A model generated the notes under the pieces. That model was given only the letters and a program-made list of their open reading frames with translations. It ran no database searches and was not told the origin of the DNA. A stretch of DNA of 64,000 bases. Origin: Micromonospora sp. KC213. Lineage in GTDB: Bacteria > Actinomycetota > Actinomycetes > Mycobacteriales > Micromonosporaceae. Position 1 is the first letter of the stretch. Each line of letters starts with the position of its first letter. The position numbers were made by a program, and so were the translations under genes. The stretch lies in contig NZ_SMKF01000011.1 of the NCBI RefSeq assembly GCF_004348325.1, positions 1-64,000 on the forward strand, in the 5' to 3' direction. Below, in pieces: positions 52,179 to 54,247 of this stretch.

Positions 52179-54247
52179 CGGGCGACGACCTGGTCTCGGC
52201 GTACGTCAGCGACGCCGAGCTGGACGCGGAGGCCAGCGTCCGTCCGAAGCGGCTGGAGGAGTTCATCGCCCAGCACCGGGTCCGCGACCAGCTCGACCTG
52301 CTGCTCCAGGGCGCGATGCGGCGCGGCTCCCCACCCGACCACATTCTCCTGTCGGGGCCGCCTGGCCTTGGGAAGCCCGTTTCCGTGGATGCGCTCGTGC
52401 TCATGGAGGACGGATCACGGCGCAGGCTGGGCGACATCGTCGTCGGTGACCGCGTCATAACCCGGACGGGTCAGGGCGCGGCGGTGACAGCCGTACACGA
52501 GCAGGGCGAACTCGACTGCGTCCGGATCCGTACCGGCAGCGGACGGGAGGTCGTCGCGGCGCCGGACCACCCGTTCTGGACGCCCGAGGGCTGGGCCAAG
52601 GCCGGAGACCTCACGGAGGACGACTATCTGGCGAACGTCCTCTGCCCCGATCTAGTCGCCGACGCCACCGAGGACCTCGCGGAGTACAAGCTCGCCGGCT
52701 ATCTGATCGGTGACGGGTGCACCACCAACCAGGTGACGTTCACCGGTGGGGACGAGGACGTCCTGGCGGACCTCCGGGCGACGTGCGACCAGCTTGGTCA
52801 CCCGCACACCACGAGGCCCAACAGCGCCCGGAGCTCGCTGATCCGGATCAGTGGCTTACGGCCGTGGCTGGAGGAGCACGGCCTCCTCGACAAGACCGCC
52901 TGGCAGAAGCGCGTGCCGGACTTCGTCTTCCGGGGTGACAGTTGGCAGGTGTCGGCGTTCCTCGCCGCGTACTTCGCCTGTGACGGCTCGGTCAGCCGGC
53001 GTGGGCGCGACCGCTACGACGTCGTGGTTGAGTACTACAGCGTCTCCCGAGGGCTCCTCCAGGACGTGCAGCACCTGCTGCTACGGCTGGGGGTTCAGTC
53101 CCGATTGAAGCTCAAGCGGGGGCGTTACCAGGGCAGACCCCACGAGTCCTGGCGGCTGAGCATCACCAGTCAGGACGACGTGGCCCGCTTCGTCCAGCGG
53201 ATGACGATCATCGGTGCGCGGGGCGAGCGGCTCGCGGGATGGGCGCCACGTCGGGACCGCTTCGAGGAGCGGCTCGCCGCCGACCGGGTGGTTTCCGTGG
53301 ATCGGGTGGGCCTCCACGAATGTCGATGCCTGACCGTGGACGGCGACCATACCTTCACCGTCAACGACTTCGTGGTGCACAACACCACCCTGGCCAATAT
53401 CGTCGCCGCCGAGTTGGGCGCCGGCATCCGGGTGACCAGCGGCCCGGCGATCGAGCGCTCCGGCGACCTGGCGGCCATCCTGACCAGCCTCGCCGAGGGC
53501 GACGTGCTCTTCATCGACGAGATCCACCGGATCGCCAAGCCGGCGGAGGAGCTGCTCTACAGCGCGATGGAGGACTTCCGGGTCGACGTGGTGGTGGGCA
53601 AGGGGCCGGGCGCCACCGCCATCCCGCTGGACGTCGAGCCGTTCACCCTGGTCGGCGCCACCACCCGGTCCGGGCTGCTCACCGGCCCGATGCGGGACCG
53701 GTTCGGCTTCGTGGCGCACCTGGACTTCTACTCCCCGGCCGACCTGGAGACGTTGCTGCACCGCTCGGCGCGGATCCTCGGCGTGCCGATCACCGACGAC
53801 GGGGCCGCCGAGATCGCCGGCCGGTCCCGGGGCACGCCCCGGATCGCCAACCGGCTGCTGCGCCGGGTCCGGGACTTCGCCGAGGTCCGGGCCGAGGGGG
53901 TGGTCACCCTGGAGACCGCCCGGGCCGCCCTCACCGTGTACGACGTCGACGCGCTCGGCCTGGACCGGCTGGACCGGGCGGTGCTCACCGCGCTGGTCGA
54001 CTCGTTCCGGGGTGGCCCGGTCGGGCTCTCCACGCTCGCCGTGGCGGTGGGGGAGCAGCCCGACACCGTGGAGGAGGTCTGCGAGCCCTTCCTGGTGCGG
54101 GCGGGTCTGCTGGCCCGGACACCACGGGGCCGGGTGGCCACCGAGGCGGCCTGGCGGCACCTGGGTCGGACCCCACCAACTGGTACATTTGGCACCGATG
54201 CCCCGCCCGCGCCCGATCTGTTCTCCGCTGCGCCCGATCAGCCGTGA
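52175..54247 (+). CDS. ruvB: Holliday junction helicase RuvB, intein-containing precursor
   Basis: AAA+ motor of the RuvAB branch-migration complex, encoded as a 690-aa precursor. Residues 1-67 and 404-690 together make a normal 354-aa RuvB. The insert separates GPPGLGK (Walker A lysine, residue 67) from TTLANIVAAELG. Walker B LFIDEIH, sensor I (VGATTRSGLL), the arginine finger region (GPMRDRFGF) and the winged-helix end are intact. Without splicing the P-loop is split and the protein should be inactive. GTG overlaps the ruvA stop. Codons beside the insert (CCT, CTT, GGG, then AAT) are atypical for this genome. Confidence 0.97.
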   Translation: MTGDDLVSAYVSDAELDAEASVRPKRLEEFIAQHRVRDQLDLLLQGAMRRGSPPDHILLSGPPGLGKPVSVDALVLMEDGSRRRLGDIVVGDRVITRTGQGAAVTAVHEQGELDCVRIRTGSGREVVAAPDHPFWTPEGWAKAGDLTEDDYLANVLCPDLVADATEDLAEYKLAGYLIGDGCTTNQVTFTGGDEDVLADLRATCDQLGHPHTTRPNSARSSLIRISGLRPWLEEHGLLDKTAWQKRVPDFVFRGDSWQVSAFLAAYFACDGSVSRRGRDRYDVVVEYYSVSRGLLQDVQHLLLRLGVQSRLKLKRGRYQGRPHESWRLSITSQDDVARFVQRMTIIGARGERLAGWAPRRDRFEERLAADRVVSVDRVGLHECRCLTVDGDHTFTVNDFVVHNTTLANIVAAELGAGIRVTSGPAIERSGDLAAILTSLAEGDVLFIDEIHRIAKPAEELLYSAMEDFRVDVVVGKGPGATAIPLDVEPFTLVGATTRSGLLTGPMRDRFGFVAHLDFYSPADLETLLHRSARILGVPITDDGAAEIAGRSRGTPRIANRLLRRVRDFAEVRAEGVVTLETARAALTVYDVDALGLDRLDRAVLTALVDSFRGGPVGLSTLAVAVGEQPDTVEEVCEPFLVRAGLLARTPRGRVATEAAWRHLGRTPPTGTFGTDAPPAPDLFSAAPDQP
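52376..53383 (+). mobile_element. RuvB intein with LAGLIDADG homing endonuclease, Pro1 type
   Basis: In-frame 336-residue intein (precursor residues 68-403). Block A is PVSVDALVLMEDG, with Pro at position 1. Block B is VVAAPDHPFWTPEGW (His65, Trp68; Ala in place of the usual Thr). The endonuclease blocks are KLAGYLIGDGC (Asp113), KRVPDFVF (Lys178) and FLAAYFACDGSV (Asp203), so it looks active. Block F is ECRCLTVDGDHTF with Cys318 at the fourth position, and block G is DFVVHN, followed by Thr. This resembles class 3 inteins. Codon use is less GC-biased and includes TTA at 52856. Confidence 0.95.

Follow-up and report, generated by a model that had tools for sequence, protein, structure and literature searches.

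A ruvB gene in the window, the 64,000-nucleotide stretch of DNA analysed here (Micromonospora sp. KC213, contig NZ_SMKF01000011.1, positions 1 to 64,000), carries an intein with a LAGLIDADG homing endonuclease inside the Walker A motif of the encoded RuvB. Judging from its sequence, this intein likely removes itself by a reaction that starts at an internal cysteine (class 3-type), and probably derives from phage terminases. The precursor open reading frame (ORF; 52175-54247; all features in the window are on the + strand) encodes 690 amino acids (aa), matches the NCBIfam RuvB equivalog model (6.8e-140) and begins with a GTG that overlaps the stop codon of ruvA; its predicted composition is a 354-aa RuvB plus a 336-aa intein. 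The N-extein (67 aa; 52175-52375) aligns without gaps to intein-free relatives and ends with the GPPGLGK half of Walker A (52355-52375). The intein runs from Pro1 to Asn336 (52376-53383) and interrupts the motif between Lys67 and Thr, and the C-extein (287 aa; 53384-54244) begins with TTLANIV at 53384, its +1 Thr completing the motif (GPPGLGK-TT). On the precursor, Pfam recognised RuvB_N in two stretches (9.6e-68), the RuvB lid, RuvB_C and LAGLIDADG_3 (1e-22). The Intein_splicing model reached 34.3 bits on the whole protein, below its cut-off of 35.8, and 36.8 bits on the insert alone. The AlphaFold model of the intein had a mean predicted local distance difference test score (pLDDT) of 91.3, with splicing blocks A, B, F and G in a predicted Hint fold inserted in frame at a conserved site. 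Extein slices from 90 genomes, 30 with the intein and 60 without, aligned with no gaps across 984 bases (one of the 90 contains a stop), and the insertion is therefore exact. An earlier note, made from the sequence of the window, had proposed a full-length intein with endonuclease in the RuvB Walker A motif whose removal leaves an ordinary 354-aa RuvB; this anatomy was borne out, exact and in frame (336 codons), the joined RuvB parts matching relatives that lack the intein at 98% identity across 328 aa.

The same site was occupied in 30 of the 354 genomes of the window's family (Micromonosporaceae), the window's genome included, and Pro1, His65, Phe67, the Cys at F:4, the Val at G:5, the terminal His-Asn and the +1 Thr were identical in all 30 of these family inteins. 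Of 219 matches, the best 120 included 73 proteins that we took as the nearest relatives outside RuvB (hereafter the listed relatives); their residues were counted in an alignment made without prior filtering. Block A (PVSVDALVLMEDG; 52376-52414) opens with Pro and has no N-terminal nucleophile. Block B (52541-52582), located by HMMER alignment to the Ssp DnaB intein (1mi8), contains His65 (B:10; 52568-52570) and Phe67 (B:12; 52574-52576). The core of block F, CRCLTV (53321-53338), holds Cys316 and Cys318, both present in 30/30 family inteins, and Cys318 (F:4; 53327-53329) is the proposed initiating nucleophile; the CxC pattern, with the second Cys two residues after the first, recurred in 72/73 listed relatives. 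Block G (VNDFVVHN; 53360-53383) supplies Val334 (G:5), His335 and Asn336. The register of B:12, F:4 and G:5 comes from the same HMMER alignment, and a joint alignment agrees with it.

Class 1 inteins have Cys, Ser or Thr at position 1, and class 1 chemistry is excluded because residue 1 is Pro. Class 2 consists of KlbA orthologs with Ala1, Asp at F:4, Cys at +1 and Ser at G:6 (PMC4031507), and at these four positions the RuvB intein has Pro, Cys, Thr and His. In class 3 inteins the F:4 Cys is the seat of the internal nucleophile (PMC3196547, PMC4031507); the RuvB intein has this Cys and lacks a position-1 nucleophile. The other two residues of the Trp-Cys-Thr (WCT) signature are replaced: B:12 is Phe67, with Trp in 0/30 family inteins and 0/73 listed relatives, and G:5 is Val334 in 30/30, with Thr in one of the 73. 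The full WCT triad was kept in eight phage WCT inteins (of the nine translated, L186 was dropped for an uncertain start) and in two class 3 inteins of the PDB, whereas the RuvB family keeps the Cys alone. The distance from F:4 to the terminal Asn was 18 in 13/13 measured RuvB inteins and 20-21 in 10/10 WCT sequences. It was also 18 in 5/8 class 1 rows, the remaining three not being measurable by pattern, and in 56/56 filtered FCV rows (the FCV set takes in 43 of the 73 listed relatives, selected by a pattern that requires Pro and CxC and limits G:5, while all residue counts were taken from the unfiltered 73). Among the unfiltered listed relatives it was 18 in 68, 20 in two, and 19 and 14 in one each, with one not aligned. 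The spacing between blocks F and G is that of class 1 and not of WCT. PMC7891396 defines class 3 broadly, by a Cys at C2:4 (which equals F:4) and the absence of Cys1, and on that definition the RuvB intein belongs to it; by the original signature it does not. It is best called a variant predicted to work like class 3.

In the proposed reaction Cys318, aided by His65, would attack the bond between Lys67 and Pro1, and the N-terminal part of RuvB would then be transferred to the +1 Thr. Asn336 would cyclise with the assistance of His335, and an acyl shift would restore the continuous GPPGLGKTT and an active 354-aa RuvB. Functional inteins that begin with Pro have been recorded, as PMC3556154 states with reference to a paper on the DnaB intein of phage Bethlehem; the title of that paper speaks of an obligate nucleophile in block F. 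The precursor should be without ATPase activity because Walker A is interrupted, and would be unable to use ATP before splicing. With the P-loop broken until that point, delayed splicing would delay branch migration, and splicing could possibly gate recombination. Once the intein is free, its endonuclease would cleave ruvB alleles that lack the intein, at the K/T site, and the intein would be copied in as the cut allele is repaired.

Many of the listed relatives have terminase Pfam domains or terminase names, with 36-50% identity over the intein. Lys at -1 and Pro1 were found in all 71 with an aligned start, the F:4 Cys in 72/73, Phe at B:12 in 65 and Val at G:5 in 70; the +1 position held Ser in 53 cases and Thr in 18. 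Another branch, 28-34% identical, lies in the terminase large subunit of Caulobacter and Brevundimonas phages, and the Pro of the phiCbK terminase intein is remarked on in PMC3556154. Separately, P0187, whose Pfam domains are those of a helicase (PF13086, PF01443) and not of a terminase, has a Lys|Pro intein of this type, which makes a third host class. In the full-length intein tree (342 columns, with 14 near-duplicate, shortened or long-branch rows left out) the RuvB inteins came out as a single clade (99/96) nested within the terminase-type inteins, which supports a single jump from the phage packaging motor to RuvB; RuvB thus probably acquired the intein from phage terminases. A tree of the splicing module, built without one class 1 row (L103) and four near-duplicate FCV rows, supported WCT, class 1 and the RuvB/terminase family each as one group, this tree being unrooted and its bootstrap not settled. 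The profile comparison score of the RuvB/terminase family was 216 against class 1 and 126 against WCT, which places it closer to class 1, with the caution that the class 1 set had been collected by similarity to the family.

Among the 30 carriers, 28 have a full-length 336-aa copy and two a 221-aa copy that lacks more than half of the endonuclease region. The named carriers belong to Micromonospora, Actinoplanes/Paractinoplanes, Asanoa and Plantactinospora. A ruvB was found in 353 of the 354 family genomes, and 323 of the 353 are without the intein. When the five top candidates of each genome were scored in a class-wide sample (394 genomes) and a phylum-wide sample (396 genomes), no full-length profile match at 1e-30 was obtained apart from the window; 11 more distant RuvB inteins at the same site came from protein records, one of them from a soil metagenome. 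The RuvB search gave exactly two matches in each of the 30 carriers, which are read as the two exteins. The earlier note had named failure to splice together with a second intact ruvB, or a sequencing or assembly error, as what could undo its proposal. The window's genome has no second ruvB, and the other 29 carriers showed no second complete one, each match there being weaker than the complete ruvB genes found in those genera; rescue by a second copy was rejected. An assembly or sequencing artefact was ruled out by the same-site insert in 29 other genomes, two with the shortened copy. On this reading of the matches, RuvB function would need splicing. Outside the carriers, two genomes (G324 and G001, the latter fragmentary and 77% complete) gave two ruvB matches each and no intein match. 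In 17 database RuvB records (P0008, P0013, P0015, P0022, P0024, P0025, P0028, P0030, P0031, P0035, P0036, P0038, P0046, P0047, P0048, P0052, P0053) the protein begins inside the intein and the N-extein is absent, through a start annotated too far downstream or a contig end; such records may help to explain why the RuvB intein was overlooked.

The endonuclease domain of the window's intein has both LAGLIDADG motifs, LAGYLIGDGC (52691-52720) and LAAYFACDGSV (52961-52993), each with its catalytic Asp (GDG, CDG) as the earlier note had read them, and the Pfam LAGLIDADG_3 match (52946-53200) has intein endonucleases as its structural kin. One of the two Asp residues was lost in 2/28 full-length copies (L028, L030), and the copies that lack over half of the region are L031 and L032. 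In the protein search, 10 of the 37 RuvB inteins with complete junctions (window included) were shorter than 320 aa, down to 131 aa. Graded loss of the endonuclease can be followed through P0056, P0037, P0041 and P0074, the last a natural 131-aa mini-intein that has no endonuclease and keeps Pro1, CxC and His-Asn. The median pairwise ratio of non-synonymous to synonymous substitution rates (dN/dS) was 0.11-0.16 across the splicing and endonuclease parts (378 pairs), 0.16 in the endonuclease region and 0.13 in the exteins of carriers; both the endonuclease region and the splicing part are under purifying selection. Because the splicing residues are intact in 30/30 while the endonuclease decays in some copies, selection appears to keep splicing and not the nuclease.

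On an extein tree of 90 rows, made from the 30 carriers and 60 of the 323 genomes that have ruvB but no intein (30 chosen as the top matches to a single query, 30 as the best of a hand-picked set of 45), at least 20 changes between presence and absence were required, 18 of them forced by well-supported branches. Within the window's genus, extein data rejected the intein clade L005/L006/L007/L016 by the approximately unbiased (AU) test (p = 0.023) and the same clade with L013 added (p = 0.010), and intein data rejected the extein pairs L006+L008 (p = 0.024) and L012+L013 (p = 0.037). The patchy distribution and this conflict within one genus point to homing. The GC content of third positions was lower in the intein than in the extein in 28/28 cases (means 0.870 and 0.945).

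Several observations weigh against splicing by the internal Cys, a single phage origin and homing. Splicing and cutting are proposed from sequence and a predicted fold. The Trp at B:12, absent here, blocked splicing when mutated in three WCT inteins (PMC5222942); the Thr at G:5 is absent too, although the same paper reports that mutating the WCT Thr can have minimal effect. When the class 1 gp41-1 intein was given Ala1 and the WCT triad it mainly underwent cleavage (PMC7664689), and the penultimate His is retained in just 61/73 listed relatives. The splicing-module tree divides the RuvB inteins in two; two separate entries from phage into RuvB were considered and dropped, as this split was not significant (AU p = 0.436) and was not seen with 342 columns. 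Intein data were compatible with the extein pairs L009+L017 (p = 0.14) and L011+L015 (p = 0.34), the six AU tests were uncorrected and picked after the trees had been viewed, and codons flanking the insertion showed no co-conversion footprint. The intein trees group by genus, and much of the intein history may have been vertical, with losses.

Other explanations of the same residues were weighed against initiation at Cys318. In a class 2 route the +1 Thr would attack the Lys-Pro1 bond directly and Cys318 would merely assist. The missing N-terminal nucleophile is common to class 2, and even WCT inteins could take either route and need tests to tell (PMC5222942); the near-invariance of the F:4 Cys in family inteins and listed relatives, the absence of the class 2 residues (PMC4031507) and a +1 residue that is Thr or Ser, both poorer nucleophiles than the Cys of class 2, make this route distinctly unlikely. 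Cys318 could alternatively belong to a regulatory switch in which it is trapped under oxidative or metal stress, so that RuvB precursor accumulates and recombination waits. An invariant CxC suits such a switch, as does Cys48 of the window, which aligns with a Cys of WCT inteins and is Cys in 11/11 distant RuvB inteins, and a Cys48-Cys118 disulfide blocks splicing of M. smegmatis DnaBi1 (PMC6195587). Position 48 is, however, Cys in just 5/30 family inteins (Ser in 22, Thr in 3) and 22/73 listed relatives, and the intein is missing from 323/353 ruvB-bearing family genomes; with Cys48 so rare in the family, a redox trap through it was retained as an alternative only, and we consider the switch unlikely. 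That the insertion is dead and the strain lives without RuvB is very improbable: ruvB is dispensable in several bacteria, but the same splicing residues persist in 30/30 family inteins and the exteins of carriers have a pairwise dN/dS near 0.13.

A harder alternative to set aside is that the RuvB intein is an ordinary divergent member of the single WCT class 3 lineage that lost its Trp and Thr, its mechanism being nothing new. PMC7891396 tallies 1701 class 3 inteins by the absence of Cys1 and a Cys at C2:4, with rare deviations at the Trp (6.1%) and the Thr (4.6%), the AceL NrdHF intein with M-C-T splices well via the class 3 route, and the unrooted splicing-module tree is compatible with a sister relation to WCT. 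We regard this as possible, if somewhat doubtful. A bolder reading, somewhat less likely than not, is a distinct lineage of RuvB and phage-terminase inteins (Pro1 - HxF - CxC - (V/C)HN), with internal-Cys initiation on a class 1-type scaffold and no WCT triad. Such a lineage would mean that the class 3 mechanism arose a second time independently, or else it would be a living intermediate between class 1 and WCT. Published accounts describe class 3 inteins as a monophyletic group, marked by Trp-Cys-Thr, that could not descend directly from class 1 (PMC4031507, PMC7664689), the latter authors arguing so from the gp41-1 result, and the RuvB/terminase family seems to be a natural counterpart close to that graft design. 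If true, a distinct lineage would run counter to the opinion that class 3 chemistry cannot have come straight from class 1. A family with an internal Cys but class 1 residues and spacing elsewhere makes the claim on the origin of class 3 directly testable, and the natural 131-aa mini-intein is a small test object. This selfish element likely moved out of phage packaging ATPases and into the corresponding type of loop of a cellular recombination motor. Among related species its site is filled in some, decaying in others and empty in yet others, which offers a system for studying homing and a possible splicing control of Holliday-junction processing.

The ruvB precursor lies in the gene order ruvC-ruvA-ruvB, with ruvC (ORF 50968-51579; Pfam RuvC 1.6e-50) and ruvA (within 51087-52178; Pfam RuvA_N 3.1e-21) upstream and yajC, secD and secF (54367-58050; Pfam YajC and SecD/SecF models) downstream. 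The window's genome has a second intein, in a class II ribonucleotide reductase (L237:2-3595:-, contig C340), which starts with Cys, ends with His-Asn|Cys, contains a LAGLIDADG domain and is of ordinary class 1 type. A Hint-like N-terminal module (L002:1501-1782:-, contig C299; 46% identity over query residues 74-152) sits in a 2599-aa open frame of the same genome and is not an intein of the RuvB/terminase family.

As an intein host RuvB is already known, being named among the intein-containing proteins of Eubacteria in Table 1 of a 2018 review (PMC5874633), an entry that leaves organism, site, class and endonuclease unspecified. The earlier note was thus right on anatomy and site, not on the novelty of the host, given that entry and the 30/354 family genomes that carry the intein, and it overlooked Pro1, CxC, the non-WCT signature and the kinship with terminases. 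In the open-licence literature searched, as far as its text was available, this table entry and the phiCbK terminase intein (PMC3556154) were the only mentions of a RuvB intein or of the CxC/Pro1 signature; against that literature, the description of an intein lineage with Pro1 and CxC, without the WCT signature, that connects phage terminases with RuvB is new. Class 1 inteins of the DnaB/RecA type (Ssp DnaB, 1mi8; Mtu RecA) differ from the RuvB intein in having Cys1 and Asp or another non-Cys residue at F:4, and the TliVMA intein (7qsu/7qss) differs as a V-ATPase intein that was solved as a C1A mutant and so has a natural Cys1. The WCT class 3 inteins (M. smegmatis and M. chimaera DnaB-1, 6bs8 and 6rix; mycobacteriophage TerL) are alike in lacking Cys1, in the Cys at F:4 and in their known P-loop sites; the RuvB intein departs from them by Phe and Val in place of Trp at B:12 and Thr at G:5, a spacing of 18 instead of 20-21 and an extra Cys at F:2. 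The terminase large-subunit inteins of phiCbK-like Caulobacter phages (PMC3556154) and of other, mostly uncultured, phages are 29-50% identical to the RuvB intein along its whole length and share with it the arrangement Lys|Pro1...His-Asn|Ser/Thr at an ATPase loop, the CxC of block F, Phe (or an aliphatic residue) at B:12 and Val at G:5, and differ in their host, which is a packaging motor and not a cellular repair helicase.
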